NCBI GenBank assembly: GCA_030148915.1 | Contig: JASBSN010000066.1 | Span: 1 to 64,000, forward strand | Direction of reading: 5' to 3' | DNA from: Thiogranum sp. | Lineage (GTDB): Bacteria; Pseudomonadota; Gammaproteobacteria; DSM-19610 | Length of the DNA: 64,000 nt | In this document: piece after piece, positions 13,734-32,333 of the stretch | Layout: each line of letters starts with the position of its first letter | How positions within the stretch are numbered: position 1 is the stretch's first letter | The notes under the pieces: model-generated | The model's input: the letters and a program-made list of their open reading frames with translations, nothing else | Told to the model about the DNA's origin: nothing | The model's database searches: none | Program-made: the position numbers and the translations under genes

Positions 13734-14681
13734 ATGCGTGGACCATCGACCGTATGCCTGGGATTGCCACTGTATAACCAGACGGACTTTCTGCAACTGG
13801 CTCTGGACTCGCTGCTTGCGCAGTCATACAGAAATTTTGAGCTGATTATAGTCGACGACTCGACTACGGAACGGCCCGGTGAGATCGCCATGCGCTATGC
13901 CCGCGCCGATCAGCGCGTGCGCTATTACCGTAATCGTGCTCGCAAAGGCATGGTCGAGAACTGGAAATGCTGTTTTATGCACGCCGCTCACGCGGACTAC
14001 TTTGCCTGGGTCAGTGACCATGATATCTGGACGCCCGGGTGGCTGACGGCCCTGGTGCGCACGCTGGATGAAAATCCCGCCGTCGTGCTGACTTATCCGA
14101 AGTTCATGCAGATCAACGCCGATGGCTCGCTTTACGCCAGGAAGCGGGTGCGGCCGTTTTCAACCGATGGCCTTGGCAACACCCGGCGCGCCCTGGCCGT
14201 CTGCCACGACGCACGCCACTTCGGCAAGATGGTTTATGGTCTCTACCGCCTCAGCGCCCTGCGCAGCACAGGTGTGTTCAGGCGCGTGCTATTTCCGGAT
14301 GTGATCCTGTTGCTTGAACTATGCCTGCACGGTGATTTCAGACAGGTCGAGGCGGAGCTATGGTACCTGAGACGACTGGCGGATTTCAGTATTGCGCGAC
14401 AAAAGCGCAGCCTTTTTGTCGCCAGACCCTGGTACATCCTGCTGCCGTGGCCACTGGTCAATGCCGCCGTACTGGCGTGGAACACCGCGCTCCGCCCCGC
14501 CGCCGGCGGTGTTCGCATCCGCTGTCTCGGGCTGATGATCGCCGTACTGTATCTCGCGCGCTGGGCGGGAAAATACGGGCAAGGCAGCCGCATCGGCTCG
14601 TATCGTGAGTGGCGAAGGGGTAAAGCGCCGTGGATGAGACAACTGGCCCGGCACGCCCGTGAGCTGAGCACAAAACCCTAG
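13734..14681 (+). CDS. Family 2 glycosyltransferase
   Basis: A 315-residue protein with a GT-A domain: CLGLPLYNQTDFLQLALDS at the N-terminus, VDDST around residue 40, and an SDHD metal-binding motif near residue 100. Hydrophobic segments between about 230 and 280 suggest membrane association. It is probably a sugar transferase of the surface glycan; donor and acceptor are unknown. It is 22 bases upstream of the O-methyltransferase and likely co-transcribed with it. Confidence 0.88.
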   Translation: MRGPSTVCLGLPLYNQTDFLQLALDSLLAQSYRNFELIIVDDSTTERPGEIAMRYARADQRVRYYRNRARKGMVENWKCCFMHAAHADYFAWVSDHDIWTPGWLTALVRTLDENPAVVLTYPKFMQINADGSLYARKRVRPFSTDGLGNTRRALAVCHDARHFGKMVYGLYRLSALRSTGVFRRVLFPDVILLLELCLHGDFRQVEAELWYLRRLADFSIARQKRSLFVARPWYILLPWPLVNAAVLAWNTALRPAAGGVRIRCLGLMIAVLYLARWAGKYGQGSRIGSYREWRRGKAPWMRQLARHARELSTKP

Positions 14682-14703
14682 CAGGACTGAAGAGGACGGC
14701 TGC

Positions 14704-15819: not shown

Positions 15820-16659
15820 ACCACGCAGCACCCTTTCCTTATACCGCAGTACCGCATCCGCGGTGACACGCTTCGGAAGCCTCTGCATATAGTCGGACGA
15901 AAAGCGGCGCTCGATAAGCGGCGCGGGGTCCAGCGCCCAATCATTGATATCGTAACCGGTCAATTCCAGGTACGGCATATAGGCTGTTTTCAGAAGATCG
16001 ATATCTTCGCTGGTAAACCAATGGCGCCAGTCGCCAAAGGATTTCCTGCGCACGACCTTGCTGTAAGGGCGAGGCACCTCGGATTCAGCGCTGACGTCAA
16101 ACCCGAGATAGCTATTCAGGGAGTCAAAATTGCTGTTGATCATATCCTCATAATTGAACACCAACCACTCATCCCCCAACCCCCGAACGAACTCGGACAT
16201 TTCCCGGTAGCATGTTTTCTCGCCGGCGCGCACCGCCTCTCGGGGCACAGGCCACTCTCCGTATCCGGCGTACCGGCATATTTCAGCGAACGGAACAGAC
16301 TCCGGATCCTGTTCCTTGCGCCTGACCAGATCTATATGGGCCCGGTACTGTTCGCCGTGGCCGAAATAACCCCGGTGCCAGCGATACAGCATTTTGCTCA
16401 CCGCCGCATCCCTGGGATCACGCGCCACCCAGATCTTGCGATCATAGCGCTCTTTACGCAAATGCTCCCGATAACGATCGAAATCCTTCCCCTTGCGCGC
16501 GCTGTAAGTATGCTTGTAAACGGCGTTGGCGTAGTTGCCGATATACTTTCCTGGCTTGCCTCCGGAAAACGCGTTACAGCCGGGCAGGCCTGCCGCAACT
16601 TTGTGCAGCAGCGCCGTGGTCCCCGATTTTCCTAGCCCCAATATCAATACCTTCATCAA
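15790..16659 (-). CDS. Sulfotransferase-domain protein
   Basis: A 289-residue protein with a PAPS-binding loop GLGKSGTTALLHK at residues 8-20 and a 3'-phosphate-binding element RDPRDAAVSKM, the two hallmarks of sulfotransferases. It would add sulfate from PAPS to a surface sugar. It is the last gene of the minus-strand nonulosonate operon, 14 bases after a surface-carbohydrate gene, so sulfation of that glycan is the likely role. ATG 16656 is an equally possible start. Confidence 0.88.
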   Translation of the reverse strand: MMKVLILGLGKSGTTALLHKVAAGLPGCNAFSGGKPGKYIGNYANAVYKHTYSARKGKDFDRYREHLRKERYDRKIWVARDPRDAAVSKMLYRWHRGYFGHGEQYRAHIDLVRRKEQDPESVPFAEICRYAGYGEWPVPREAVRAGEKTCYREMSEFVRGLGDEWLVFNYEDMINSNFDSLNSYLGFDVSAESEVPRPYSKVVRRKSFGDWRHWFTSEDIDLLKTAYMPYLELTGYDINDWALDPAPLIERRFSSDYMQRLPKRVTADAVLRYKERVLRGLKRRFTSSG

Positions 16660-16673
16660 TCCACCTCCGGTAA

Positions 16674-18104
16674 TCAGGCGCTGACACGAAATACCTGGTC
16701 AGCGATACGCTCCGCCTTGAGTTCGCCGGCCTCGCTGCCCAGCACCTGCTGGAACCCTACTATCCGTTGACCGAGCTCTTCGAGCGTTATGCCTGGATAG
16801 CGGTGACGGTGAAACGCGGGTGGCGCATGCGATCCCGGGAGATAGCGTTTCGTCCATTTGGCAATGCGCCGCCCGGCGGCCTCCCCAGCACCGGCAAGGC
16901 GAGCGTGCAAGGCGGGTGTCTTCCACCCCGTCCCGACCCCTGCGATGACTTCGAGAACATCCACCATGCGCTCACACGCCAGCGGGCCGGCCTGCGCTGC
17001 AACGTATTGCCGGAAAAGCCGTTCGCTCCTCCGCCCGCTGATCGCGGCTAACTTGCTGTGCACAATTGCGTCGAGCGCCTCCAGTACGCACCCACGATCG
17101 AAGCACTGATGACTCAACTGGTTCGGCAGATGATAGAAACTCCGGTCGATCTCCTCGTTGACACAGGGACGATAACTGACCGCAGGTAGACCCAGGCTAT
17201 AAGCCTCTACCGCGGTGGTACAACCATTGTGCACAAGCGCCTTGGCCGCCATCAGCCAGGGCACGACATTGCCCTCGCTGGTGACTTTTACCCGCCTGCA
17301 CCGCGCCGCCACCTCCCGGTAGGCATCCTGGTTTTCGGTCGGGTGCGGACGCACGATCACAGTACAATCCGAAAACCTTTCGTCGAGCTGGGGGATAATC
17401 GCTTTAAAGTGACCGAAGAGGGCCTGCTTGTGCTTGCGCAGCGCGTGCGCGAACTCCCGGCTCATGCCCCTGGCCGCCTTACCCATGCCGGCCGTATCAC
17501 CCTTTTTCTTCGTCGCATAAAACAAATTCTGATGGGCAAAAAATGCGTTGACATGGTTAAAGTTGGTATTAACGAGAATAAAGCTTCCATACCTTTCGCG
17601 CAGACGTTCGGCGTCTTGTTCGTAAACGGCGCGTATATCAGGGCGCACCAGGTCGCCACGCGGATTGCCGGTTACGTGGATAGGTTTCTCCCGCGGCATT
17701 TGCGGATAACGCCGCCACAGGTTCGCATTGTCCTCGCCCCAGGCGAAAAGATGCGATACGTACTTCAGCGAGGCCGGCGACAGGCGTCGCGAGAAATATA
17801 TGTCGGGCGGCAGATGGACCAGTGCTTCTTCGTCCCAGGAGACAATGCGGTGACCAAGCTTGTGCATGATCCGGAACATGGCCAGGTTTCTCGCCGTAAA
17901 GCTCTTACACAGATAGACACTTCTCGGCAACGAGGCTATCCCCAGATCTATCTTTCGATGTGAGCCAATGATGCAGGTGAAGCCACGCCGTGCGGCGACA
18001 CACGCCAGTAGCAATTTGGGGTCGAGTTCCCGAACCTGGTTTTCCACGGGAATAATCAGCGGTGTTTTTTTTCGCCTCATGGCCTTCAACATGCTTTCAG
18101 GCAT
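16674..18104 (-). CDS. Surface carbohydrate biosynthesis protein, copy 2 (GT-B-like)
   Basis: A 476-residue protein of the surface-carbohydrate biosynthesis family: PVENQVRELDPKLLLACVAA near the N-terminus, a conserved WDEEALVHLPP segment, and a CDP-glycerol-transferase-like C-terminal half with VRPHPTEN and HNGCTTAVEAY. The fold resembles GT-B enzymes such as capsule or Kdo transferases. It is a tandem paralogue of the next upstream gene, by eye about half identical, and overlaps it by 8 bases. The donor may be the CMP-nonulosonate made by this operon, which is inference. Confidence 0.85.
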   Translation of the reverse strand: MPESMLKAMRRKKTPLIIPVENQVRELDPKLLLACVAARRGFTCIIGSHRKIDLGIASLPRSVYLCKSFTARNLAMFRIMHKLGHRIVSWDEEALVHLPPDIYFSRRLSPASLKYVSHLFAWGEDNANLWRRYPQMPREKPIHVTGNPRGDLVRPDIRAVYEQDAERLRERYGSFILVNTNFNHVNAFFAHQNLFYATKKKGDTAGMGKAARGMSREFAHALRKHKQALFGHFKAIIPQLDERFSDCTVIVRPHPTENQDAYREVAARCRRVKVTSEGNVVPWLMAAKALVHNGCTTAVEAYSLGLPAVSYRPCVNEEIDRSFYHLPNQLSHQCFDRGCVLEALDAIVHSKLAAISGRRSERLFRQYVAAQAGPLACERMVDVLEVIAGVGTGWKTPALHARLAGAGEAAGRRIAKWTKRYLPGSHAPPAFHRHRYPGITLEELGQRIVGFQQVLGSEAGELKAERIADQVFRVSA

Positions 18105-19503
18105 TGACCCTGAACATCGTGCCTGACACCCGATCGATGCTCAGCTCTTTGCTGAAGCCGAGTACATGCCCCAGACGCGACACCCTGGCTCGTACCTCCT
18201 CCAGCGCAAGCTCGGGATAGCGGTGTTGCTGATACTCGGGCTTGTTGTGCGAGCCGGGCAGGTGCCCCTTCAACTGTCTCGCCACGCTAAGCCCCTTGGC
18301 GAGCAGCCACCGTTGCATGCGCGGCGCGCCCGAATCGACAGACAGCCGGGCTGAGAGTTTATGCAATGTTTCCAGCACATCGATCATCCGTTCACAGGCC
18401 AGCGGTCCGTCCTGGGCGTCGAGAAACCTGTCAATGAGTTGCTGTCGCTCGGGACCGTCCGCGGCGCCGAGCGCGCCGTCAAGAACGCTTCGTAACGTGG
18501 CGGCGAGCTCCTGGAACCCGAAGCATTGATGGCTGAGCCCGTTAGGCAGCCGATAAAATCCGTTGTCGTACTCATCGCTGACCGCCGACCGGTAACTGAT
18601 CGCCGGAACACCCATCACGTATGCCTCGACCGCCGTGGTACATCCATTGTGTACCAGCGCCCGGGCCGCCATGAGCCACGGCACGACATTGCCCTTGTTG
18701 CAAATCCGCACGCGCCGGCAGCGTGCCGCAATGCTTCGGTAGACTTCATGATTTTCCGTCGGATGGGGGCGAACAACAATGGTGCACTCGGGGAATGTCT
18801 CTTCGAGAGCCGGAATAAGTTCTTTGAAACTGGAAAAGAGCGCATGTTTGTGGTCCCACAATCCCTTGGCATACTCGCGCGTCATCCCCCTCGCGCCACG
18901 ACCGAAACGCGCCTTTCCCCGGGGGGTCTTCGCCGGTCTGAACAGATTAATGTCCGTACCGAACGCGTTGACATGGTTGAAATTGGTATTAACCAGGATA
19001 AAGTCGCCATAGGTCCGGCGTAGCACGGCGGCATCTTTTTCATAATATGCGCGCATTTCTTTGCGCAACATGTCGCCGCGCGGATTGCCGACAGCGTGTA
19101 TCGGTGTATCCCCGGGCAGACCGGGGTACTGACGCCACAACTCAATGTTGTCCTGACCCCAGGCAAACAGGCTGAGCACGTATTTTAGAGCAGATCGGTT
19201 CATCCGGCGCGAAAAATAACTGGACGGAGGTAAATGAACCAGCGCCTCTTCATCCCAGGCGACTATTTTGTGTCCAAAGCGCCGGGCTATACGAAAAAAC
19301 AGCAGGCTGCGTACGGTCATGCTCTTGGAGAGGTAGATGGCATCGGAAAAGGCGTCGATATTGAACTCCATCTCCCTGCGTGAACCGACAATGGAAGAAA
19401 AGCCGCGTTGCGCCGCGACGCAGGCGAGCAGCAGTTTAGGGTCAAGTTCGCGTACCTGATTCTCCACGGGGATCAGCAGTAATGGTGTCTGGCCGCTCGT
19501 CAC
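18097..19503 (-). CDS. Surface carbohydrate biosynthesis protein, copy 1 (GT-B-like)
   Basis: A 468-residue paralogue of the downstream gene with the same landmarks: PVENQVRELDPKLLLACVAA, WDEEALVHLPP, NPRGD, FILVNTNFNHVNAFG, VRPHPTENHEVY and HNGCTTAVEAY. Retention of both copies suggests two related transfer steps. It begins with GTG at 19501-19503, 60 bases after the transketolase gene. Confidence 0.85.
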   Translation of the reverse strand: MTSGQTPLLLIPVENQVRELDPKLLLACVAAQRGFSSIVGSRREMEFNIDAFSDAIYLSKSMTVRSLLFFRIARRFGHKIVAWDEEALVHLPPSSYFSRRMNRSALKYVLSLFAWGQDNIELWRQYPGLPGDTPIHAVGNPRGDMLRKEMRAYYEKDAAVLRRTYGDFILVNTNFNHVNAFGTDINLFRPAKTPRGKARFGRGARGMTREYAKGLWDHKHALFSSFKELIPALEETFPECTIVVRPHPTENHEVYRSIAARCRRVRICNKGNVVPWLMAARALVHNGCTTAVEAYVMGVPAISYRSAVSDEYDNGFYRLPNGLSHQCFGFQELAATLRSVLDGALGAADGPERQQLIDRFLDAQDGPLACERMIDVLETLHKLSARLSVDSGAPRMQRWLLAKGLSVARQLKGHLPGSHNKPEYQQHRYPELALEEVRARVSRLGHVLGFSKELSIDRVSGTMFRVNA

Positions 19504-19563
19504 GAGTGTCTGACCGACGCTCCGCCAGCCGGCTCGGTAGCGTTTTCCCGGGGCACCGCCATC

Positions 19564-21522
19564 TCAGGACGCCGCCTCCAGCGCGCGCTGTTCCCGGCCA
19601 TCCCGGACTCCAATAATACGTTGCATCAGCGCCGCCCCGTTCAAGTTGTGGTAACCGAGCACCTCTCCAGGCGTTCCACAAGCCGGATGACCTTCAACGG
19701 CGAATTTCACCAATCTTCGTCCACGTAGACGAGGCGACTCCATGAAGGCATTTAGCAGCGTATCGCCGAGTCCTCCATACCTGGCGTGATCGTCCAGCAC
19801 GAAGCTCACGGCGCAATCACCTATTGTTGCTTCCAGCCAGCGCGGATCGACGTTGTTCAGCCACGGCATGTTTACCACGCGCAGCGAGATACCGCGCTCA
19901 TTTAGCAGCTCAGCGGCGATCAACGCCTCGTTCAACATGACCGGTCCGTAGCTGAACAGCACGGTGTCCCGCCCTTCGCTCAACACGCTGCCCCTGCCGA
20001 AACTGAATTGATAATCAGCCGCATGCTGAATAGTCCGTGGCGACGGCCCGATTACCAGGCGCAGCATGCAGCTTTGCCGAGCGCCGTTCACGCACCACTC
20101 GAGCGCCCGCTTCGTTTCCACCGCGGTGGCGGGCTCGATGATGACGCAGCCCGGCAACGCGCCAAATAGCGATATGTCGCGCAGGCTCTGATGCGATTTT
20201 CCCGGGCCGGCTGGAATGAGGCCCGCGTAGTGACATACGTAAATGACTTTTGTATGCTCGGTGGCGTTATTGTAAATCTGCTCGTTGGCGCGCGACGCGA
20301 GAAATACGCCAAAAGAATTCACAATCGGCAAGTATCCCTCCAGCGCAAGCCCGCCCGCCGTAGAAACCATATCCTGTTCGGCGATACCACACTCGATGAA
20401 ACGCGCCGGCCAGGCGTCTTCGAACGGACGCAGGCCGCAGTCCGCGGATAAATCCGCGTCCAGAACCACGATGTCGCTTCGTTGGCCTCCCAGCTCCCAC
20501 AGCGCTTCGCCATAGGCAGTCACCACTTTTTCAGCCCGGTCTTTCAGGCGTGCACTTTTCCGCCTGCGCGAGACGACAACCTCCGCGTTTAGCGGCGGCA
20601 ACCCCAAATTAGAAAGTTGTTCGTCGATCCTTGCCGCAATTTCCGCGTACCCCGCTTCGAAGGCGTCGTCCTCAGGCGCACCAGAGTGCCAGGGATAGTA
20701 TCCATTGGCTGCCTGCAGCGCGGCCGGACCTTCCATAAACGACACACCCTTACCCTTGATCGTCTCGGCGATCAGGACTTTAGGCTTATCGGTCAGCTGC
20801 CGGAAATCCGCCAGCGTCCTGTCGAGCGCCGTAAAGTCGTGGCCGTCACAACAGGCCGCGTACCAGCCAAATGCGGTAAACTTTTTCACCAGATCACCCA
20901 GATCGGTGATTTCACTCACCGGTCTGTCCGATTGAATTTTATTCCTATCAACAATGGCGGTGATATTGTTTACCGACTGGTGGGCCGCGGTCTGTAATGA
21001 CTCCCAGATTTGTCCCTCCTGGAGTTCGCCGTCGCCGGTCATTACAAACACCTGTCCGGATGAGCCACGCAGCTGTTTTGCCAGCGCCATGCCCTTTGCC
21101 TTAGAGATACCCATGCCCAGCGAACCGGTATTGCTTTCAATCCCCGGAATACCGACATCCGGATGACCGTCAGTACCGCCGAGGCGCCGCAGATGGATAA
21201 ACAGCTCACGGGGAATAATGCCCAACGAATACAGAACCGCATAATAAGCGGGAGCATCGTGACCCTTGGACGAGAAGTAGATGTCACGATCGGGGTGATC
21301 ACAACCGAGTCGAAGCGTGTTCATGACTCTGTAATAGAGGAAGGTGACAATATCCACGGAACTGAAGCTGGAGCCGAGGTGACCGGATCCAGCCAGCTTC
21401 ACGCTCGTAAGGGTGTTGGCTCGACACATCTCAGCTATCAGGCGCAGTTTATCGCTACTGTTTCCAGCAGCATTGTTCACCCGCCGGAATTCTGTTTGCG
21501 GAATAAGTCTGATCTCTAGCAT
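19564..21522 (-). CDS. Transketolase-like enzyme in the nonulosonate operon
   Basis: A 652-residue enzyme with all transketolase parts: an N-terminal thiamine-diphosphate domain (GDGELQEGQIWESL, then a second part ending IVDRN), a central pyrimidine domain with the catalytic glutamate in ECGIAEQDM, and a C-terminal domain. It would move a two-carbon ketol unit between sugars. It overlaps the end of neuA by 7 bases and is embedded in the operon, so it probably acts on a glycan precursor and not in central metabolism. Full-length fusion is notable because many polysaccharide-locus versions are split into two genes. Confidence 0.9.
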   Translation of the reverse strand: MLEIRLIPQTEFRRVNNAAGNSSDKLRLIAEMCRANTLTSVKLAGSGHLGSSFSSVDIVTFLYYRVMNTLRLGCDHPDRDIYFSSKGHDAPAYYAVLYSLGIIPRELFIHLRRLGGTDGHPDVGIPGIESNTGSLGMGISKAKGMALAKQLRGSSGQVFVMTGDGELQEGQIWESLQTAAHQSVNNITAIVDRNKIQSDRPVSEITDLGDLVKKFTAFGWYAACCDGHDFTALDRTLADFRQLTDKPKVLIAETIKGKGVSFMEGPAALQAANGYYPWHSGAPEDDAFEAGYAEIAARIDEQLSNLGLPPLNAEVVVSRRRKSARLKDRAEKVVTAYGEALWELGGQRSDIVVLDADLSADCGLRPFEDAWPARFIECGIAEQDMVSTAGGLALEGYLPIVNSFGVFLASRANEQIYNNATEHTKVIYVCHYAGLIPAGPGKSHQSLRDISLFGALPGCVIIEPATAVETKRALEWCVNGARQSCMLRLVIGPSPRTIQHAADYQFSFGRGSVLSEGRDTVLFSYGPVMLNEALIAAELLNERGISLRVVNMPWLNNVDPRWLEATIGDCAVSFVLDDHARYGGLGDTLLNAFMESPRLRGRRLVKFAVEGHPACGTPGEVLGYHNLNGAALMQRIIGVRDGREQRALEAAS

Positions 21523-22301
21523 TTTTGCTGGTGCCTCTCTAGGAGATATGGAAAGGGTGTGACGACGGGCAGTTTCGCCCGGCCGTTGCTTGCCAGAGAT
21601 TGCGCAAGGCCCCAGTCGTACTCGCTGTTGATATCGAAACCTTCGTGGCTTTTTGTAAAAAAAGGGGCCAGAACATCTCCAGCGATAGTCGCTTTTTCAA
21701 AAACTACCCGCGTCCAGGCGATCTCCAGACTGGCATTCTGCACATACACCTCAGGCAGCGCCGCATACTGGCTGCTGTGCCAAGGCTGTGAGGACGGCTG
21801 TAACGGCAACACGGGCTGCATACGACGGTCTTTCACCACCCACATTTTCCCCGGGTGCTGTTGACATTTTTCAACCGCACGCAGTGAATCGACACCGTCT
21901 TCGGACAAAAACACAGCCCAGGCGCGCCGGATGGTTTCCGCCAACCGAAACGGGCTGGTCGGACGCAGTATGCTGAAGCAATCGTATTCGCGGCCTGTCC
22001 GCCGGAGCCTGTCAAGGGTATAAGCGACCCACTCGATATCCGCGGACATGTCACCGGCTAGGGCGGTAGGGCGCAGAAAGGGTATTTGTGCACCGTAGTG
22101 TGCTGCGATATCGGCGTACCGCCCGGAGTCCGTCGACACCACAACATCGGTAAAGACGCCGCTGTGCAATGCCGCCGCAATGGAATAGCCGATCAGGGGG
22201 TGCCCGGCCAGAGCCCGAATATTCTTGTCTTTTACCCGCTTTGAACCGGCCCTTGCCGGAATCAGCGCGAGCACTCTGTGGGTTTGTGCTGAAGCGCGCA
22301 T
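21516..22301 (-). CDS. Acylneuraminate cytidylyltransferase family protein (NeuA-like)
   Basis: A 261-residue CMP-sugar synthetase that would activate the nonulosonate with CTP. The nucleotide-binding signature IPARAGSKRVKDKN is at residues 15-28, and LRPTSPFR and SEYDWGLA follow at the expected positions. The ATG directly follows the stop of the aldehyde dehydrogenase gene, and its end overlaps the transketolase start. The exact sugar (Neu5Ac, Kdn, legionaminic-type or another) cannot be told from sequence. Confidence 0.92.
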   Translation of the reverse strand: MRASAQTHRVLALIPARAGSKRVKDKNIRALAGHPLIGYSIAAALHSGVFTDVVVSTDSGRYADIAAHYGAQIPFLRPTALAGDMSADIEWVAYTLDRLRRTGREYDCFSILRPTSPFRLAETIRRAWAVFLSEDGVDSLRAVEKCQQHPGKMWVVKDRRMQPVLPLQPSSQPWHSSQYAALPEVYVQNASLEIAWTRVVFEKATIAGDVLAPFFTKSHEGFDINSEYDWGLAQSLASNGRAKLPVVTPFPYLLERHQQKC

Positions 22302-23774
22302 CTAGACAACTCCCGGATCGATATTAATGTAGATGTTCTTCAGGTTCGAATACACATCCATTGCCTCGGTTCCGGGCTCCCGCCATCCGTTACCGGATTG
22401 CTTGAGCCCTCCAAAGGGCATATGCGGCTCGCTGCCATGGGTGCCGCCGTTGACCACGGCCACACCGGCCTGCACTTTCCGGGCGAACTCGGTGGCGCGG
22501 TGAACGCTGGCGGTGTGAATGCTGGCGGTGAGGCCATACGGCGAGTCGTTGGCCATTTGCAGCGCCTCTGCGAAGTCGGTGGCGCGGTACAAACAGGTGA
22601 TCGGTCCAAACAGTTCCGTGGTGGAGATCTCGTCGTGGGGGCTGACGTTCTCGATGACAGTCGGCGCCATATAAAACCCGCCGGCATGTTTCTCATCGCT
22701 CAGACGCTGGCCACCGGCCGCCACCACTGCGCCCCGCTGCCGAGCACCGTTGATTTGTGCGAGCATATTATTGAGCTGTTTTTCGTTAATTACTGGACCG
22801 AAGTCGTCGTCGCTGCCAGGGCCCACACTTAAAACCCGACTGCGCTCCACAAACCGGTCTCGGAATGCCGCATAGACGGATGCAAATATAATGATGCGAC
22901 TGGCCGCGGCGCAACGCTGACCGGCATTGCTGAATGCGGCAAGCAGCGCCCATTCCAGGGCGCTGTCGAGGTCGGCATCGTCGCACACGACGAGTGGATT
23001 CTTTCCGCCCAACTCCAGCGAGCATCGTGTCAGCCGCTCACCGGCCGCCGCCGCGATTCGCCGCCCCACGGCCGTGGAACCGGTAAAGCTGATAACATCT
23101 ATACGGGGATCGGCCACCAGCGCTGCACCGGCTTCGTCACCACGGCCCTGAACAATATTGAGCACCCCAGCCGGGACACCCGCCGCAGCGGCGATTGTGC
23201 CGAAAAGCCAGGCGCTCGCTGGCGCGTCCTCCGCGGCCTTGAGAACCACGGTGTTACCACAAACCAATGCGGGGAAAACTTTCCACGCGACATTGGCGAT
23301 AGGCGTATTGGCGGCGACGATCAGCCCGGCCACCCCGAGCGGCTGGCGCACGGTCATAGCGTGCTTGTCGGGCACCGCGCTGGTAGTGGTACGGCCGTAG
23401 AGGCGACGTCCCTCACCGGCCATGAACTCGCCCTGAGCGATCGCGGCATCGGTCTCTGCAAGAGCGGCACTTGAAGACATACCGGTCTCGACAGCAACCA
23501 CCGCGGCGATATCGCTCCGGCGTGCGCGCATCAATTGGGCAATGCCGTGCAAGAGCTCACCACGCTGCACGGGGGTGAGCCCGGCCCACGCCGTCTGCGC
23601 GGCGAGCGCGGCCTCAATGGCCTGGCGCACATCCTCTCGCGCGGACCTTGCAACTTCGTATATCCGCTGACCGCTATGCGGGGACAGCTTGTTAAAAGTC
23701 GCAGCGGATAAGGCTTGGCGCTGATCGCCGTTAATCCAGTTAGGGACAACAGGAGGTATGAACTCAGGGAACAT
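22302..23774 (-). CDS. Aldehyde dehydrogenase family protein
   Basis: A 490-residue NAD(P)-dependent aldehyde dehydrogenase with catalytic Cys288 (NAGQRC), general base Glu254 (LELGGKNP) and the cofactor loop FTGSTAVG. ATG 23774 was chosen because it lies 20 bases after the SDR stop; a TTG nine codons upstream is possible. Its place between neuA and the SDR suggests oxidation of a sugar aldehyde or removal of a reactive intermediate in glycan precursor synthesis. The substrate is unknown. Confidence 0.9.
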   Translation of the reverse strand: MFPEFIPPVVPNWINGDQRQALSAATFNKLSPHSGQRIYEVARSAREDVRQAIEAALAAQTAWAGLTPVQRGELLHGIAQLMRARRSDIAAVVAVETGMSSSAALAETDAAIAQGEFMAGEGRRLYGRTTTSAVPDKHAMTVRQPLGVAGLIVAANTPIANVAWKVFPALVCGNTVVLKAAEDAPASAWLFGTIAAAAGVPAGVLNIVQGRGDEAGAALVADPRIDVISFTGSTAVGRRIAAAAGERLTRCSLELGGKNPLVVCDDADLDSALEWALLAAFSNAGQRCAAASRIIIFASVYAAFRDRFVERSRVLSVGPGSDDDFGPVINEKQLNNMLAQINGARQRGAVVAAGGQRLSDEKHAGGFYMAPTVIENVSPHDEISTTELFGPITCLYRATDFAEALQMANDSPYGLTASIHTASVHRATEFARKVQAGVAVVNGGTHGSEPHMPFGGLKQSGNGWREPGTEAMDVYSNLKNIYINIDPGVV

Positions 23775-23794
23775 TCGGGCGGCTCGCGGATTTT

Positions 23795-24607
23795 TTACCA
23801 AGCGGAGAAACCGCCGTCCACCACCAGCTCGGTGCCAGTAACGTAGGATGATGCCGGCGAAGCGAGAAACAGCAGCGGTCCACCAAGCTCCTCGCTGGCG
23901 GCCATCCGCCGCATGGGCACTCGATCGCAGAATTTTCTTCTGAATGCCTCGTCCTGGTCGGCCTGCACGCCACCGGGCGACAGCGCGTTGACCCGTATAC
24001 CGGCGCCCGCCCAGTGCGTGGCCAGATAGCGCGTCAGGCTGACAACCGCCGCCTTGGATGCGGCGTACGCCGGTGGCTTCAGAAAGGGCGGATCACTGCG
24101 AATGTGGTCGTAGAACCTCTTGTCCGGGGAAACACCGGCATACAGCGAACCGATATTGATGATCGAGCCCCGTCCCGCGCTCGCCATCCGGGCACCGAAA
24201 ACCTGACTGGTCAGGAACAGGCCCAGTGTATTCACGTCGAAAATTTCCCGGCACTCGGTGAGCGGAATGTCTTCGAGGCGATAACTCTGCCCACTCGCAC
24301 CGGGCGGACGGTCGATGGCCGCGTTGTTGACCAGAACCGACGGCACCCCCCGGCTTTCGACGCATTCCGCAGCTACAGCTTCAAGCGCCGGACGGTCTCT
24401 GATATCGACTGATTCCAGCTTGAGGCGCGCCTCACCGTAGCGTGTCTGCAACTCAGCGAACTCCATTGGCACCCCAGCACCGGGCAGATCCAGCGCAATA
24501 ACCGAAGCACCGGCGGCGAGCAACACCTCGATCCAAACCGGACCCAACTTGCCTAGCGCTCCGGTGACAATCGCAATCTCGCACTCCAGGCTAAACAATG
24601 CCTTCAA
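23795..24607 (-). CDS. Short-chain dehydrogenase/reductase
   Basis: A 270-residue SDR with the cofactor motif TGALGKLG (residues 15-22), NNAA near 94-97, Ser154 and the catalytic Tyr181-x3-Lys185. It overlaps the end of neuB by 4 bases (ATG at 24605-24607). Similar SDRs accompany neuB in legionaminic-type and other nonulosonate loci, where they probably modify the sugar. Substrate unknown. Confidence 0.9.
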   Translation of the reverse strand: MKALFSLECEIAIVTGALGKLGPVWIEVLLAAGASVIALDLPGAGVPMEFAELQTRYGEARLKLESVDIRDRPALEAVAAECVESRGVPSVLVNNAAIDRPPGASGQSYRLEDIPLTECREIFDVNTLGLFLTSQVFGARMASAGRGSIINIGSLYAGVSPDKRFYDHIRSDPPFLKPPAYAASKAAVVSLTRYLATHWAGAGIRVNALSPGGVQADQDEAFRRKFCDRVPMRRMAASEELGGPLLFLASPASSYVTGTELVVDGGFSAW

Positions 24608-25683
24608 GATACGGCCATCTCACGCCAATGTTCCGCCCCGTTCAATAGCTCAAAGGCGATCGCTTCGTCTTCTGTCATCGCCCGAGAGATGACCCGGCCG
24701 ATAACTTTGTCTAGCTCGTAGGGCGGAAGCCCGTCTCCCGGTGACTTGACGGCAATGTCCTCGAGACGCAAGGTGTGCCCCGCAGGTAAATCACGCGCGA
24801 CGACCAGCTTTTTCCCCATCTTCGTGATCGAGGGAATTTCGCTGTTATAGACTTTTTTGACACCGTCGCCTATCGCAACTTCCAGCCTGCTGAGGTCGCG
24901 CACCAGCTTTCGCAACCCGCCGGGCTCCAGCGAAAAAGCATGGTCAGTGCCTTTCCAGGTATGGTTAAAGGTAAAATGCTTTTCCACGATACGTGCGCCC
25001 AGCATAAACGCGGCTATCGCCATGGCAATGCCATTGTCATGAGAGGACAGACCAATAGTGGCTCTGGGAAAACGCTCGCGGAAGGTAGTAATTACGCGCA
25101 AGTTGAGTTCGCTGAACTGTGCCGGATAGCCCGCGGTGCACTGAAGAATACCCAACTGCTCATTGATCGGCATAATGGCATCATAGGCACGGTTGACGTC
25201 CTCCATCGTACCGCCCCCGGTACTGATTACCATTGGCTTACCGAACTGCGCAATATGTCGAAGCAGGGGAATGTTCTTCAAGTCTCCGGAGGCCACCTTG
25301 AAAGCGGAAACGTCCAGTTTTTGCAAAAAATCGGCACTGGATAAATCAAACGCTGTAGCGAGAACTGTAATGCCAATCTCCCGCCCATAATCCATCAGCT
25401 CGCGATATTCACTCCAGCCGAACTCAAGATACTCCCGGTGCTCACCGTAGGTTCGGCCAAAACTGTTTTCATGATCGTAAAGCCTGTCGTAGCTGGCCCT
25501 GGTAAATAGCTGGCGATTATCACGCTTTTGCAGCTTGACCGCATTGACCCCGCATTCTTTTGCCACGCGCAGCATATCCAAGGCTGTTTCGAGTCTACCC
25601 TGGTGGTTGTGTCCGATTTCCGCAATGGTGTAACAACCGCTGTTGTCATCGATCGCTCTGTTGTCAATTGTCAGTTTTCGCAT
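24604..25683 (-). CDS. NeuB-family nonulosonate (sialic acid-type) synthase
   Basis: A 359-residue enzyme that condenses phosphoenolpyruvate with a six-carbon sugar to give a nine-carbon acid. Landmarks are AEIGHNHQG near the N-terminus, the barrel segments AFKVASGDL and CTAGYPA, the EKHFTF active-site element, and a C-terminal SAF domain (about residues 290-350). Start ATG 25681-25683 has GAGGAG about nine bases upstream; an in-frame start 11 codons earlier lacks one. It is first in an eight-gene operon. No UDP-GlcNAc 2-epimerase (neuC) is present here, so the substrate sugar is open. Confidence 0.93.
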   Translation of the reverse strand: MRKLTIDNRAIDDNSGCYTIAEIGHNHQGRLETALDMLRVAKECGVNAVKLQKRDNRQLFTRASYDRLYDHENSFGRTYGEHREYLEFGWSEYRELMDYGREIGITVLATAFDLSSADFLQKLDVSAFKVASGDLKNIPLLRHIAQFGKPMVISTGGGTMEDVNRAYDAIMPINEQLGILQCTAGYPAQFSELNLRVITTFRERFPRATIGLSSHDNGIAMAIAAFMLGARIVEKHFTFNHTWKGTDHAFSLEPGGLRKLVRDLSRLEVAIGDGVKKVYNSEIPSITKMGKKLVVARDLPAGHTLRLEDIAVKSPGDGLPPYELDKVIGRVISRAMTEDEAIAFELLNGAEHWREMAVS

Positions 25684-25861
25684 ACAGCTTGGCTCCTCGG
25701 CAACTCGGTCGGTCATCTGCTACAGGCAGGCCACTTGACCTGGTGGCGTCGGAGTATACTTTCTTCTCACTTGCCGACTGAATCGTCCCCCCGTGTCTAA
25801 AGACAGGCGTTCGTCTTACATCGTATGCTAAAAAGAGGCAATCAAAACGGGACATCTGGTA

Positions 25862-26812
25862 GTGGGACGAATACTGTTTCGAACAACATTCAAGCACTCG
25901 CCCCGGCTGCGCAGGCTGGCATTGCACGTCGAGGGTGCGATGCTTCATCTGTTTTGGAAACTGATAACACGGATGTCTGCGCATCGCGCCTGCTCGCTCG
26001 GCAGAGCGCTGTCCGGCTGGCTGGGCCCGAAAAGCCATAGACATGCGCAGCTAAAGAAAAACCTTAGGCTTGCTTTTCCGGCGCATTCCGCAGCCGAAAT
26101 CGAGCTGCTGGCGCAAGGGGTCTGGAAAAATCTCGGCGCAGTGATGGCAGAAGCCCCGCACTTGAGTTCAATGACCGTCGGCGGCGCCAATCCATCGGTG
26201 CATGTGAGCATCGACGCCGCGACGCGACCGATACTGGACCAGCGACAACCCGCCGTCTACGTGAGCGCCCACCTCGCCAACTGGGAAATTGCCGCGCTCA
26301 CTATAGCCAGACTCGGTGTACCCCTCAGCGTCGTCTACGGAGCGCAGCGCAACCCTGCTCTCGAAGCGTTGATCCAGGACTGCCGCGGCGTGCTCGGTTG
26401 TCGACTGGTAGAAAAAAGCAGCGCCATGCGCCGGCTCGTCGGCGACATCGGCGAAGGCCGCTCGGTAGGTCTGTTAGTGGATCAGCGCGTGGACAGCGGC
26501 GTATTGGCCCCGTTCTTCGGCATACTTGCGCGGACAACAACCAGCCCCGCCCGGCTGGCGTTGAAACTGGGTTGTCCTCTGGTACCCGTTCAGGTTGAAC
26601 GACTGGGCGACGCCTGCTTCAGGACCGTATTTCACCCGCCGCTGCCGGTGAACCTCAAGGCGAGCGATGCGGAAAACATTCTGCAGCTAACCACTCAGAT
26701 CAACGGGTTGTTCGAAACATGGATCCGCCTTCGACCGGAGCAATGGTTGTGCTTAAAGCGACGCTGGCCGGTCCCTGAATACGCCGCCTCGACGAACAAC
26801 ACAGGAGCGTAA
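25862..26812 (+). CDS. LpxL/HtrB-family acyltransferase
   Basis: A 316-residue inner-membrane acyltransferase of the lipid A late-acyltransferase family. The catalytic His-x4-Glu is in SAHLANWEIAAL, followed by the usual GLLVDQRV and APFFG segments. It would add a fatty acyl chain to lipid A or a related glycolipid. It starts at GTG 25862, 178 bases from the divergent neuB, and is followed after 6 bases by a glycosyltransferase gene. Confidence 0.88.
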   Translation: MGRILFRTTFKHSPRLRRLALHVEGAMLHLFWKLITRMSAHRACSLGRALSGWLGPKSHRHAQLKKNLRLAFPAHSAAEIELLAQGVWKNLGAVMAEAPHLSSMTVGGANPSVHVSIDAATRPILDQRQPAVYVSAHLANWEIAALTIARLGVPLSVVYGAQRNPALEALIQDCRGVLGCRLVEKSSAMRRLVGDIGEGRSVGLLVDQRVDSGVLAPFFGILARTTTSPARLALKLGCPLVPVQVERLGDACFRTVFHPPLPVNLKASDAENILQLTTQINGLFETWIRLRPEQWLCLKRRWPVPEYAASTNNTGA

Positions 26813-26818
26813 CGGGCC

Positions 26819-27808
26819 ATGCGGATAAGCTCGGTTTCCATCGTCAGAAATGAATCGGACATAATCGAGTCATTCATACGCTACAATCTGCAGTTTATTG
26901 ACCATATGTGGGTCATCGATCACAACAGCGCCGATCCCACGCGCGCCATTCTACGGCGGCTTATCAGAGAAGGGCTGCCACTTACACTGTTGCTGGCGTT
27001 CGATTCAGAGCACCGTCAGGCGCAACGGCTGACTGCCCTGGCACGCAAGGCCGCCATTACCGACCGCGCTGATGTCATCATGCCGCTCGACGCTGATGAG
27101 TTCATTCTGGCCAAGGGCGGTCGGGCGGAACTGGAAGCCCGCCTTCACGAAACGGCCAGCAGACCGGTGCTACTACCCTGGACAACTTATGCCCCGACGC
27201 CGGACGACGATGAGCAAGAAGCGGACTGCTTGAGACGCGTGGTGCACAGGTGTCAACCGGACGGTGAAAAAGGCTATTTCAAGGTCGCGGTTCCGGCCCA
27301 CTTGTTCCTCGATACCGCCACATCGCTTGCAGAAGGCAGTCACAGCATAGTTAGAAAAGATGATACCCCCATTGAGCACATTCGCGGCACCGGGCTGGGC
27401 ATAGCGCACTACCCGATTCGTAGCGCCGAGCAGGCGCTTGGAAAGATATTGCTCGGCGAACTCTCTCTGCGCCTGAAAAGCGAACGCAAATCCGGTGAAG
27501 GCCGTCACTGGGCGGATCTGTACGTGCGCACTCGCCATAATCTCTCGCTCAGCAAAACGGATCTACTCGCTATTGCCACCAGCTATGCCCGCAGGGGCCC
27601 ACACTGCGTCGTGCGCGACCCTATTGACCCCATCCCCTATACCGGACTGCGCTACCCGGAGCTGATGGATACCGGCGTCACCCGTCGCATAATTGCATTT
27701 ACAGAACAAGTGATTCAGGCCCGATCGCAGCACAATCGCCTCACCGGGCAGTACGCTTTTACGCCAGAGCATCGTGCCACCGCAAAGCACCTGTCAGGGA
27801 AGTTTTAG
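26819..27808 (+). CDS. Family 2-type glycosyltransferase
   Basis: A 329-residue cytoplasmic protein with a GT-A-like N-terminus: VSIVRNESDIIESFIRYNL, WVIDHNSADPT and a DxD motif in PLDADEF around residue 80. This pattern matches the Glyco_tranf_2_4 group. It probably acts on lipopolysaccharide or the surface glycan. It shares a transcript with the acyltransferase. Its end overlaps the convergent O-antigen ligase gene by 15 bases. Confidence 0.83.
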   Translation: MRISSVSIVRNESDIIESFIRYNLQFIDHMWVIDHNSADPTRAILRRLIREGLPLTLLLAFDSEHRQAQRLTALARKAAITDRADVIMPLDADEFILAKGGRAELEARLHETASRPVLLPWTTYAPTPDDDEQEADCLRRVVHRCQPDGEKGYFKVAVPAHLFLDTATSLAEGSHSIVRKDDTPIEHIRGTGLGIAHYPIRSAEQALGKILLGELSLRLKSERKSGEGRHWADLYVRTRHNLSLSKTDLLAIATSYARRGPHCVVRDPIDPIPYTGLRYPELMDTGVTRRIIAFTEQVIQARSQHNRLTGQYAFTPEHRATAKHLSGKF

Positions 27809-28996
27809 CCGCTCCGCGCGCGGCAAAACCCTTGGCGCCGAGGCGAGTGCAATCGGCAACCAGAAATACAACCACGCCTCGTTGGGCGGACCAAGCAGTC
27901 TATCCGTATCGGCAAGCATACAGACGATACTGTAGACCATCAGCGCGGCAAACACCGGCTCGCCACCCTGACGCCATTTGGCAATGGCGTTGCTGATCGC
28001 TTGTATGAGCAGCAGGATGAGCAACCCCAGGCCGATTATTCCGCCGTCGCGCGCCGCACTCAGGTAACCGCTGTGGGCGTGGACAAATACGTGACCAGCC
28101 ACCGTCACAGTCGTGTCACTACAGTAGCCATGCCCTGTCAGGGGCGCTGTGGAGATTCGCTCGACGGTAGTGCGCCAGATCGCAGCCCGGTATCCTACAC
28201 CCTCGGTAAAACGTTCCAAGAGGCGTGCGCCAAACATGACACTCAATAAGATCAGCGCTAAGGCAAGCGCGAGCGCGGCTGACGACCAGCGCCGGCAGCA
28301 GAATAATATGCCGAGACCGATGACGACTGCCACCACGGCATTCCTGCTCTGCGTCAACAGCACCACCGTACACAGCACACTAAAGACCAGCAGGGAAAAC
28401 ATCCGGCGGGGTACGGATTGCGCTGCCAACAGATGTGCAGCGTTCAGCAGCACCAACGGCCCGTAAGCGAGGCCCACCAGCACCGGATTGTTGAGCTTAC
28501 TGAAAGAGACCAGCCTCGATTGCGGAAACGGGTGGTCGGCATACCAGATAACAATCGAAGCCAGGCCGAACACGGCGGCGCCCACGGAAACCAGTTTCAG
28601 CAGCGTCCAGAGTCCGTCGCCGGATTGGTGTACCAGCAGCATCGATACCGACAGGAATGACGCTGTCAGCAGCCCCTGGCCAGCGGCGGCGGCGATACAC
28701 TGGCGCCCGGCGCCGTCACTCCAGGTTGCGCTTACGGCCATGTAGGCTATAAACGCGAGCGCCAGACGCGGGCCTCGTCGCAGGCATATCCAGCGCAGCG
28801 TCAGGAGCACGAATGGCAGAAACGGCGGCAACACGCCGCCCACATAGAACCAGTATCGCTGGTGGGCTTCGGGGAAAGAAAAAAGCCCGCTTAAAAATAA
28901 CCCGTAACTAACAAACAGTAACCGGATTAATCTGCTCTGCGAGCCTTGCGGATCCGGATCACGCGCCGTCTCCAAGCCCGGCCACCAGGCTCTCAC
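27794..28996 (-). CDS. O-antigen ligase family membrane protein (WaaL/Wzy_C type)
   Basis: A 400-residue protein with about 10-12 membrane helices and a Wzy_C-type periplasmic region (TQSRNA, then GYRAAIWRTTVERISTAPLTGHGYCS and HAHSGYL). It would attach or polymerise surface polysaccharide at the periplasmic face. The GTG start at 28996 is 6 bases after the ubiT stop, so it appears to lie in the luxR-ubiT transcript, an unusual partnership. Confidence 0.87.
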   Translation of the reverse strand: MRAWWPGLETARDPDPQGSQSRLIRLLFVSYGLFLSGLFSFPEAHQRYWFYVGGVLPPFLPFVLLTLRWICLRRGPRLALAFIAYMAVSATWSDGAGRQCIAAAAGQGLLTASFLSVSMLLVHQSGDGLWTLLKLVSVGAAVFGLASIVIWYADHPFPQSRLVSFSKLNNPVLVGLAYGPLVLLNAAHLLAAQSVPRRMFSLLVFSVLCTVVLLTQSRNAVVAVVIGLGILFCCRRWSSAALALALALILLSVMFGARLLERFTEGVGYRAAIWRTTVERISTAPLTGHGYCSDTTVTVAGHVFVHAHSGYLSAARDGGIIGLGLLILLLIQAISNAIAKWRQGGEPVFAALMVYSIVCMLADTDRLLGPPNEAWLYFWLPIALASAPRVLPRAERLKLP

Positions 28997-29002: not shown

Positions 29003-29497
29003 CTAGCCGAACAGGCGTGCGTATACAGGCAGAGCCCTGCGCAATAGAGCAGCGGGAGATCGATAGCGCTGAAGAGATTCCACATCCAGAGCGTCGAGGA
29101 AATTCTTCACCTGCAGCCCAAGCTCGGTATCGCCCCTGACAACCAGCCGCCTCTGGAACACCAGCGTATCCGGATCCTCTTGACGGCCGATCAGCAGCAG
29201 AAAATCGTACAGCGAAGCCTCAATAATTAAACTATCATCGCGGGGCAGCCGATCAGCCACCAGCCGCCTTGCGCGCAACGAAAATCGGTAACTGATCTCG
29301 ATGTCCCGCACCTTGATGACCACGGCGCGGTTGTGCAGAAAGTCCAGCTCTCCATCGTACAATGCAACAGCCAGGGTGTAGTTCAACGCGGTCACCAGCA
29401 AGCGCCCGTGCAGTTCGCCCGGCAACAGGGAAAATGGCTTGGCCAAAAACCAGGGGACGCGCGCCGGGCCGGCCCGACTCGCCGAGGCAGCGGTCAT
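29003..29497 (-). CDS. ubiT: Oxygen-independent ubiquinone biosynthesis protein UbiT (SCP2 domain)
   Basis: A 164-residue SCP2-type lipid-binding protein. The C-terminal half carries the UbiT signature: RQEDPDTLVFQRRLVVRG, then DTELGLQVKNFLDALD, nearly the same as E. coli YhbT. Earlier DGELDFLHNRAVVIKVRDIEI also fits. UbiT assists UbiU and UbiV, probably by holding the lipid intermediate. ATG 29497 was chosen; a TTG seven codons upstream is possible. It is about 18 kb from ubiUV, behind a LuxR-type gene and 6 bases before an O-antigen ligase gene. Confidence 0.93.
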   Translation of the reverse strand: MTAASASRAGPARVPWFLAKPFSLLPGELHGRLLVTALNYTLAVALYDGELDFLHNRAVVIKVRDIEISYRFSLRARRLVADRLPRDDSLIIEASLYDFLLLIGRQEDPDTLVFQRRLVVRGDTELGLQVKNFLDALDVESLQRYRSPAALLRRALPVYARLFG

Positions 29498-29539
29498 CGG
29501 ATTGGCGGATCCCGCCAAACTCCAGACTCGCGCTGTCGG

Positions 29540-30118
29540 CTATGACTCACTGCTGGAGGCCTCGCCGGCGGCACAAAGCGCACGGCCAAACTGCTGCCTG
29601 TTCGCCGGGACGTACTTCGGCTCTTCACCCAGTTCCCGGCATTTTCGATAGGCGTTATTCAGATGGGTGCGCAAGGTGGCCCGTGATATCGAAAGTAGTT
29701 CGCAAATCTGCGGATTGGATTCCCCTCTGACAATGAGAGAAACAATCTCGAACTCACGGTCTGTGAGCCCCTTGTGGCGGTAATAGGCATCCGCCATCCG
29801 GTATTTGTCACTGAGTGGCTGAAGGAACGTAATTATACTCTCGGCGCTGCACAACAGCATGACATCGAAATAGCCGCCGTGAAGGAAGCTGTTACTGTAC
29901 ATTCGGCTGCCCCAGCCTTTCCACTGCTGGCTATCGTCATGGGCGTAGAGTTCCATACATCCTGTGGTACACCGCTTACCCTGCTGTTCCCCGCAGATTT
30001 TGCGACAGCAGTCATTCTGGTATAAAACCCGCTTGTCGGCGGTCTTGGCGCAGACGGCAACACCCGCGGTTACCAGGCATTCTTGCAACACATCATTCAT
30101 AGGTGGGACCGCATCCAT
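29540..30118 (-). CDS. LuxR-type transcriptional regulator with cysteine-rich N-terminal domain
   Basis: A 192-residue protein with a C-terminal LuxR/GerE helix-turn-helix (about residues 117-165: LTDREFEIVSLIVRGESNPQ and on). The N-terminal 110 residues resemble a small PAS-like sensor and contain cysteines at 14, 23, 37, 38, 42, 50, 54 and 90. Cys37, 38, 42, 50 and 54 fall within 18 residues and could bind a metal or Fe-S cluster; that is inference. The gap to ubiT is 42 bases on the same strand, so it may control ubiT in response to oxygen or redox state. ATG 30100 is an alternative start. Confidence 0.85.
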   Translation of the reverse strand: MDAVPPMNDVLQECLVTAGVAVCAKTADKRVLYQNDCCRKICGEQQGKRCTTGCMELYAHDDSQQWKGWGSRMYSNSFLHGGYFDVMLLCSAESIITFLQPLSDKYRMADAYYRHKGLTDREFEIVSLIVRGESNPQICELLSISRATLRTHLNNAYRKCRELGEEPKYVPANRQQFGRALCAAGEASSSES

Positions 30119-30304: not shown

Positions 30305-31213
30305 TCAGGCACCGGCAAGCCGCGGCGTCCTATCGATCACTTCCAGAGCATCGTGCCGTACATGGTTCTGCTTCATCTGATCGCAAATCAGCTCCTCGGT
30401 GACAATGCCCTTTTCCAGGCATTCTTTAAGCAGGCCAAAAAAGAAATCTTCCTGATGAGGGTCGGGATGAGGCTGATAGCAACCCAGCAGCGCGTATTCG
30501 CCGAACAGGCGCCGCCGCGCCTGCATTAGCCAACCCAGGGGCGGAAACAGGCGAAATCTTTCCGCCGGACGCCAATCTATGGGTAACCCGGCCTTCCATG
30601 GCTGGGTCCGGCGTCGGGTGTTATGGATCATTTTGGTGTTCTCGTCCAACTTGTCGAAATCATTCCACTCGTTTTCAAACAACCCGATGGTCTCGCGCGC
30701 CTCGTCTTTCAGGCAGATCCAGGGTTGGTAGTCCTGTTCAAAGGTGAACATCCGGTCGAAGGTCTGTTCGACATTCCAGTGCCTCAGCTTTTCGTTGTCG
30801 AGCAACATCACGCTGCTGGCGAGGCAGCGATCGACGGCGCCCTTGGGCCCGGCGCGTCGCCGGCACATGATCGCTTTGCCCTGCATATCCCGGGACAGGA
30901 GTTCCCACACGTCTCCGAGCGCAAAAACGTCAGGGTCGATAACCACGGCACGCCCCTGATAGCCCATGAGTTCCGGCGGCATAAAACGCAATGGCGTGAA
31001 CGATTGCAGATCATTATTAAACCACGGGCGCTTCACGCCATCGCGCAGGTAAAACTGACCCTCGTGTTCGCGGAAAAACGGGTAATCCTGATGCTGAATA
31101 ATGCGCACGCCGAACTTGGTGTTATTTTTCGAATTTCGCCGCAAGGCGTATTCCGCAACCAGCGCACCGACAATCTGTTTGTGATTGGTATGGATAAAAA
31201 CACAATATTCCAT
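30305..31213 (-). CDS. Glycosyltransferase-like protein, copy 2 of tandem pair
   Basis: A 302-residue protein with a family 8-like look: an N-terminal VFIHTNHKQIVGALVAEYAL, and a candidate metal-binding motif in VVIDPDVFALGDVW. I cannot name a defined family. It is by eye about two-thirds identical to the next gene upstream, differing mainly in surface positions. Start ATG 31211-31213 has GGAGGA about ten bases upstream. The likely role is a sugar transfer on a cell-surface or stored glycan. Both copies lie behind the FNR-type box at 32313. Confidence 0.7.
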   Translation of the reverse strand: MEYCVFIHTNHKQIVGALVAEYALRRNSKNNTKFGVRIIQHQDYPFFREHEGQFYLRDGVKRPWFNNDLQSFTPLRFMPPELMGYQGRAVVIDPDVFALGDVWELLSRDMQGKAIMCRRRAGPKGAVDRCLASSVMLLDNEKLRHWNVEQTFDRMFTFEQDYQPWICLKDEARETIGLFENEWNDFDKLDENTKMIHNTRRRTQPWKAGLPIDWRPAERFRLFPPLGWLMQARRRLFGEYALLGCYQPHPDPHQEDFFFGLLKECLEKGIVTEELICDQMKQNHVRHDALEVIDRTPRLAGA

Positions 31214-31292
31214 GGCTGTGCAGTCCTCCGGCAACTGCGCGCGACAGCGCTACTTACCCTGGCATCCGCGGCGCATCGTCAAAGACACACCG

Positions 31293-32201
31293 TCAAGCGG
31301 GCGCGAGGGGCGGCGTCTTGTCCAGAACCTCAAAGGCATCATGACGCACGTGATTCTGGTTCATCTGCTCACGGATCATGGTCTCGCTGAGTTTACCCTG
31401 CTCCAGGCATTCTTTGAGCAAACCGAAGAATAGCCTCTCCTGGTGCGGGTCCGGGTGGGGCCGGTAGTGTCCGAGAAAGGCGTACTCACCGAAGATCTTG
31501 CGCCGGGCTTTCATCACCCAGGCCAGCGGCGGGAAGTAGGGGAATTTCTCCCGTGGCCGGTGATCTATCGGCAAACCGGTCTTCCACGGCTGAGTTTTGC
31601 GCTTGGTGGTATGCAGCATGCGCGTGCTCGCGCTCAACCTGTCGAAGTCGTTCCATTCGTTCTCAAACAGACCGATGCTCTCGGGCGGCTCGGTTTTCAG
31701 GCAAATCCAGTTCATATAGTCCCGTTTGCCTTCGAACATCTCGTTGAAATTCTCCTCGACTCTCCAGTGTTTGAGCTTGGCGTTGTCCAGCAGCATGGCG
31801 CTGCTGGCCAGGCAGCGGTCAAACCTGCCCTTGGTGCCGGTTCGGGGACGACACATGATCGCCTTGCCCAGCATGTCGCGCGAAAGCAGATCCCAGACAT
31901 CCGCGACGGCAAAAATATCGGGATCGATCACCACCGAACGTCCTGCATAGCCCATCAGTTCCGGTGGCAAGAAGCGCAGAGGCGTAAAGGATTGCAGATC
32001 GTTATTCAACCACGGACGACGCATACCGTCCCGTCGGTAGAGCTGGCCCTCGCGGGCGCTAAAAAAGGGATAGTCCTTGAGCTGAATGAAGCGGACGTCG
32101 AATTTGTCGTTATTGCGCGAATAACGGCGTAGCGCATGCTCGGCGACATGAGCGCCAACAATCTGCTTGTGGTTGGTGTGAATAAAGACACAAGGTTTCA
32201 T
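31293..32201 (-). CDS. Glycosyltransferase-like protein, copy 1 of tandem pair
   Basis: A 302-residue paralogue of the downstream gene, with VFIHTNHKQIVGAHVAEHAL, NNDLQSFTPLRFLPPELMGY and VVIDPDIFAVADVWDLLSRD. ATG 32199-32201 has GGGGAG six bases upstream; the frame is open further up but without a better start. The 79-base gap between the two copies and their equal length point to a simple tandem duplication. Transcription probably starts near 32278 behind the FNR-type box. Confidence 0.7.
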   Translation of the reverse strand: MKPCVFIHTNHKQIVGAHVAEHALRRYSRNNDKFDVRFIQLKDYPFFSAREGQLYRRDGMRRPWLNNDLQSFTPLRFLPPELMGYAGRSVVIDPDIFAVADVWDLLSRDMLGKAIMCRPRTGTKGRFDRCLASSAMLLDNAKLKHWRVEENFNEMFEGKRDYMNWICLKTEPPESIGLFENEWNDFDRLSASTRMLHTTKRKTQPWKTGLPIDHRPREKFPYFPPLAWVMKARRKIFGEYAFLGHYRPHPDPHQERLFFGLLKECLEQGKLSETMIREQMNQNHVRHDAFEVLDKTPPLAPA

Positions 32202-32305
32202 ACCCAGCTCCCCGTAGTGACCGGCCAGGGCCGGCACAGCCTGGGCGCACAGCCGGCGCAGCACCCGACCCCTGGAGTTGTGCATTCAAACACACACCCG
32301 GGCGC

Positions 32306-32333
32306 ACTGTATTTGATCCTGGTCAAATACAGT
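32306..32333 (-). promoter_or_regulatory. FNR/Anr-type box inside a long perfect palindrome
   Basis: TTGATCCTGGTCAA (32313-32326) matches the FNR/Anr dyad. It is the centre of a larger inverted repeat: arms of 14 bases (CGCACTGTATTTGA and its complement) flank a six-base loop, spanning about 32303-32336. On the minus strand a -10-like TTGAAT (32284-32289) lies about 30 bases from the box centre, as in a class II FNR promoter, giving a start near 32278 and a leader of about 77 bases to the glycosyltransferase gene at 32201. No T run follows, so a plain terminator for ctaB is less likely, though the hairpin could have that effect. Confidence 0.65.

Follow-up and report, generated by a model that had tools for sequence, protein, structure and literature searches.

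The window, a 64,000-nt stretch of DNA, contains the gene of a small LuxR-type regulator next to ubiT, and the cysteines crowded into the N-terminal half of the protein raise the question of what this regulator senses. In the first-pass annotation, the cysteines were proposed to form a possible Fe-S or metal sensor in a small PAS-like domain. The gene and its domains are as follows:

29540–30118, minus strand: PAS-HTH (LuxR/GerE-type) one-component regulator of 192 aa, from the ORF and its translation, the GerE score, homologues and the AlphaFold2 model.
29813–30067, minus strand: PAS sensor domain, residues about 18–102, from predicted strands and helices, with PAS chains among the structure matches.
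29633–29761, minus strand: HTH, residues 120–162, from the GerE profile match and the AlphaFold2 model.

Inspection of the C-terminal half revealed a GerE HTH (PF00196) scoring 37.9 bits against the curated cut-off of 23.5. Because the profile was aligned over only positions 3–44 of 57, the usual fourth GerE helix seems to be absent. The model exhibited three HTH helices up to residue 162 and none thereafter, with confidence dropping past residue 170; in place of the fourth helix the homologues share a conserved tail with the consensus GExPEFIPANR. For the N-terminal half of the window protein no Pfam family, PAS included, was found, and PAS_8 was weakly matched by three of 14 homologous sensor domains (best E of 0.01). 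The AlphaFold2 model, built on 22 homologues and with a mean pLDDT of 87.3, placed sensor strands at residues 21–26, 30–34, 70–79, 82–90 and 94–101 and helices at 36–42 and 54–59, with a linker helix (103–114) joining PAS and HTH. This predicted strand-helix order is that of PAS domains and supports a PAS fold of the sensor half. In the whole-chain Foldseek ranking, VqmA and the light sensor EL222 came out on top; the best match was VqmA 7dwm (E of 5.4e-5), followed by the further VqmA chains 6ide and 6ugl, at 14–16% identity. The VIA structure aligner returned PAS domains throughout, the best ones with Z of 8–9.5 and rmsd of 2.3–4.5 over 77–108 residues, led by 3olo (Z 9.5, rmsd 3.6, 96 residues). 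VqmA was absent from the phmmer matches of the regulator at E up to 1, and a sensor-only search against solved structures gave no meaningful match. The description of the sensor as a small PAS-like domain was thus borne out by structure prediction.

All eight cysteines named in the first-pass annotation (C14, C23, C37, C38, C42, C50, C54 and C90) were present in the translation, and the codons of C37–C54, at about 29957–30010, fall inside the interval 29930–30020 that it had marked. Their density had been called unusual, which agreed with the statistics: against a Cys background of 1.6% over the window ORFs, five in 18 residues gave a binomial P of 7.6e-6 at a fixed place, and a denser cluster was found in only one other window ORF, which overlaps a neighbouring gene and has a start that looks misframed. 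Since shuffling of the regulator's own 11 cysteines reproduced such a cluster in 5.5% of cases, conservation is stronger evidence than density. The cysteines that are conserved in the 22 homologues are:

29957–30007, minus strand: motif C38-X3-C42-X7-C50-X3-C54, with C42, C50 and C54 in 22/22 and C38 in 21/22.
30050–30052, minus strand: C23, in the predicted first PAS strand of the AlphaFold2 model, invariant (22/22).
29849–29851, minus strand: C90, at the end of a predicted strand of the same model, in 20/22.

The motif CX3CX7CX3C and C23 make up the conserved cysteine set of the sensor. Within the genus and family (13 sequences), C23, C38, C42, C50, C54, C90 and the HTH residue C139 were invariant. 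The 22-sequence alignment extends to MAGs of Thiotrichaceae, Pseudomonadales and Rhodospirillaceae; here C139 was kept in 20 sequences, and the core cysteines were still kept in homologues down to about 40–65% identity to the window copy. C14 and C37 were poorly kept (2/22 and 1/22), and a Cys at position 45 was found in 7/22. The homologue alignment suggested as a check therefore spoke for C23, C38, C42, C50 and C54, less strictly for C90, and against C14 and C37. In the most distant homologue (L036), position 38 is Ser and an extra Cys occurs at 47, so that the motif still has four cysteines; the exchange may suit a four-ligand site, or may be a coincidence in a single sequence. A Fisher test of invariant columns, cysteine against others, gave a P of 0.037, a modest value because few columns were compared.

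The surroundings of the gene, whose neighbours were named partly from their translations, include the following:

29003–29518, minus strand: ubiT, starting 21 nt after the regulator and in the same direction (NF047962, E of 2e-36, 125 bits against a cut-off of 46.9).
8965–11038, plus strand: ubiU (8965–10002) and ubiV (to 11038), with PF01136 matches at G000:C31:9247-9999 and 10373-10897.
30305–32285, minus strand: two GT8-like genes upstream of the regulator, from a weak GT8 match and a conserved DPD motif.

Upstream of the regulator, the window carries these two GT8-like genes and ctaB, and cbb3 oxidase genes (named from translations) were found at its start. Many relatives have the regulator near ubiT/ubiUV or aa3-oxidase/ctaB genes; ctaB/SCO/SURF1-like genes lie upstream of it in many of them and are co-directional in several further loci. 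The gene is thus supported, by its genomic context, as a likely member of a low-oxygen respiratory neighbourhood. It was observed that ubiT was adjacent to or within about 6 kb of the regulator in G000, G004, G009, G015, G016, G017 and G766. One contig carries both genes in G004, G009, G015 and G016, ubiT follows directly after the regulator in G017, and ubiUVT adjoins it convergently in L034/L066. Such a placement, 21 nt apart in the window and near in six other genomes, would agree with a regulator dedicated to local ubiT control; but the regulator occurs without ubiT in the complete G008 and in G763 and G765, and other genes stand between the two in most loci, and we consider a dedicated role very improbable. 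The complete one-contig genome G008 had no UbiT over the cut-off and no ubiUV, and the Thiotrichaceae genomes G763 and G765 had no UbiT; on account of these three genomes the idea of an exclusive ubiT regulator was dropped. It had also been stated that ubiT is needed only without oxygen, which was inexact: in E. coli, UbiT matters also around the return to air, its loss greatly delaying the anaerobic-to-aerobic shift and the onset of aerobic ubiquinone synthesis also requiring it (PMC10470549).

Several smaller features of these loci were observed. A block of surface-polysaccharide-type genes (window 11943–28996) separates ubiUV from ubiT, whereas in G009 some 3 kb hold all of ubiU, ubiV and ubiT. 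A gene for a small radical-SAM-like protein (NITDRCTLRCxFCPKY) is found at window 7421–8044, close to ubiU, and at L063 9080–9682 and L018 2522–3223; G008, which has no ubiUVT, keeps this gene beside the regulator. The Rhodospirillaceae homologue in L036 (1218–8388) lies upstream of response regulator, cytochrome c peroxidase-like, Rieske-like and molybdopterin-enzyme-like genes, which is another redox setting.

Because conserved sensor cysteines occur together with genes for respiration at low or no oxygen, redox state is probably what the regulator senses, by way of a metal or iron-sulfur centre. The strongest candidate for the cofactor is an Fe-S cluster, since four cysteines in two CX3C pairs, within a PAS domain and in a respiratory setting, resemble NreB. 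This staphylococcal oxygen sensor kinase, which controls low-oxygen respiration, also has four PAS cysteines, and these bind [4Fe-4S] (PMC4601167). Four conserved cysteines within a PAS domain, as in NreB, were found in the regulator; a histidine kinase output of the NreB type was not, its output being the HTH. NreB is a histidine kinase that needs the response regulator NreC, whereas the regulator of the window combines PAS and HTH in a single protein and its cluster is putative. The spacing CX3CX7CX3C was not matched to any known Fe-S regulator, and the literature search found no Fe-S LuxR-type PAS regulator in the papers covered. Heme was considered as the cofactor and dropped, with the evidence being neutral. 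FG214 is likewise a redox-responsive PAS fused to an HTH, but it holds heme b via His/Met, has no Cys motif reported and carries the HTH ahead of the PAS (PMC13060918).

The cysteine conservation would fit Zn or disulfide use equally well. A structural Zn on the four cysteines could hold a shortened PAS loop, leaving the PAS pocket to sense some other small ligand; CX3C pairs suit Zn equally, and the polar or aromatic non-Cys invariants of the sensor (D61, Q65, W66, W69, Y74 and Q100) could line such a pocket. A four-ligand Zn site, however, leaves the conservation of C23 and C90 unexplained, and the respiratory setting suggests redox instead, which makes this alternative quite unlikely. Somewhat unlikely, too, is a thiol switch in which disulfides, or persulfides from sulfide or sulfane sulfur, alter DNA binding without a metal. 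The top structural match, the Vibrio quorum-sensing regulator VqmA, has a PAS sensor followed by a LuxR-type HTH, and its activity depends on cysteines, through a C48-C63 disulfide and a C134-C134 bond that tune it (PMC7387800). VqmA differs from the regulator, to which it is about 15% identical, in that it binds DPO and uses disulfides. The related genomes bear genus names of sulfur oxidisers, e.g. Thiogranum, in which sensing of sulfane sulfur would be useful; but a non-exhaustive look at the compared loci revealed no sulfur-oxidation gene as a conserved neighbour, and four to five conserved cysteines, with pairs three residues apart, exceed what a two-cysteine switch needs.

Upstream control was approached by a scan for the FNR-type consensus TTGATNNNNATCAA within 200 bp upstream of the regulator, with at most one mismatch. 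Eight of 21 loci had such a site; five sites are perfect, and most lie at −110 to −115. With an expected rate of 1.5% per locus, taken from elsewhere in the same loci, the binomial P was about 4e-10, a value that is too optimistic, since some of the loci, L021 and L022, are closely related. In the upstream alignment, a conserved GATTT and a TTG-TA element come after the FNR-type site. In G004 (L028), the regulator, a GT8-like gene and ubiT all point in one direction, with a perfect site ahead of them. Within the window, the 186 nt that immediately precede the regulator contain no FNR-type site, the nearest being upstream of the GT8-like genes, and a simple sigma-70 promoter scan near the regulator found none. 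The two sites of the window are:

7348–7361, no strand assigned: FNR-type site TTGATACAGGTCAA, with ccoN on one side and the radical-SAM/ubiUV genes on the other, one mismatch to TTGATNNNNATCAA.
32313–32326, no strand assigned: FNR-type site that is part of a longer inverted repeat and precedes the GT8-like/regulator/ubiT run, one mismatch.

The latter may be part of a hairpin. Five CRP/FNR-family proteins are encoded in the genome, one of which (L068) has CX2CX5C as in FNR, and the putative sites could be used by any FNR/DNR-type protein. Since this FNR-like gene exists, the idea that the regulator replaces FNR was dropped. FNR shares with the regulator the link to low-oxygen control and ubiTUV; it differs in its CRP-family fold and is its likely upstream controller, no relative. 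The sites agree with the published broad FNR control of ubiTUV, which is known in E. coli (PMC10470549) and predicted across Pseudomonadota (PMC11707229). Tandem GT8-like copies (window 30305–32285, L022, L025, L029 and L035), with a FIHTNHKQ start and an invariant DPD, adjoin the regulator in at least 13 loci, and several have perfect or near-perfect FNR-type sites upstream. The repeated TTTATYCAYACCAA was rejected as a site, as it appears to encode the FIHTNHKQ stretch of these genes.

The reading to which we give a probability of about 0.5 is that of a one-component factor under FNR-type control that, with its PAS domain, senses redox state or a gas at a second tier, most likely via an Fe-S cluster. 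The HTH, the cysteine conservation, the neighbourhood and the FNR-type sites are read from the DNA and protein sequences and the PAS fold from structure prediction; what the protein binds, what it responds to, which genes it controls and whether it activates or represses them are inferred. In the proposed mechanism, the regulator would be a cytoplasmic one-component transcription factor whose gene an FNR/DNR-type activator turns on as oxygen falls; with expression at low oxygen set in this way, it would therefore be a second-tier sensor. C38, C42, C50 and C54 of the PAS domain and the invariant C23 would together hold a centre that responds to redox state or a gas, with an Fe-S cluster as the likeliest kind, by which a second cue (redox state, NO or returning oxygen) would be read. 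A change in this centre would pass through the linker helix (103–114) to the LuxR/GerE-type HTH, and the controlled respiratory programme may include ubiUVT, terminal oxidases and the neighbouring GT8-like genes. The fully specified version, a LuxR/GerE one-component factor with a PAS Fe-S cluster bound via CX3CX7CX3C that provides, beneath FNR, a further oxygen/NO/redox checkpoint in the switch between respiratory modes, is more tentative and falls a little short of even odds.

The Fe-S transcription factors known to date fall mostly into the CRP/FNR, Rrf2, Wbl or MerR-like groups. If the proposal is true, the regulator would be a compact redox switch, a one-protein Fe-S PAS-HTH that unites the Fe-S transcription factor with the Fe-S PAS sensor, the latter acting in NreB through a separate response regulator, and sulfur-oxidising bacteria would have a second layer of sensing, beneath FNR, around oxygen-independent ubiquinone synthesis. 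If the site holds only Zn or forms only disulfides, the result would be smaller, an undescribed PAS-HTH family.

The regulator represents a PAS-HTH family, undescribed so far, that has a conserved Cys motif and is probably under FNR-type control. When genome contigs were searched, a single-sequence query gave no match and an alignment query recovered homologues. Matches were obtained in 14 genomes among the relatives, the window's own counted, with an HTH remnant only in G001. Full-length copies occur in most genomes of the genus, and the near relatives that carry homologues include MAGs of Thiogranum, Thiohalobacter and Sedimenticola. Searches of a sample of 369 class and 398 phylum genomes with full-length and sensor-only profiles added no members; as nothing appeared outside the genus in these samples, the family is rare and patchy. 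No match was found in viral contigs, and plasmid matches mostly covered the HTH half. The HTH-only remnant of G001 lies beside ccoN (L015/L064, about 8462–9100) and is apparently a decayed copy.
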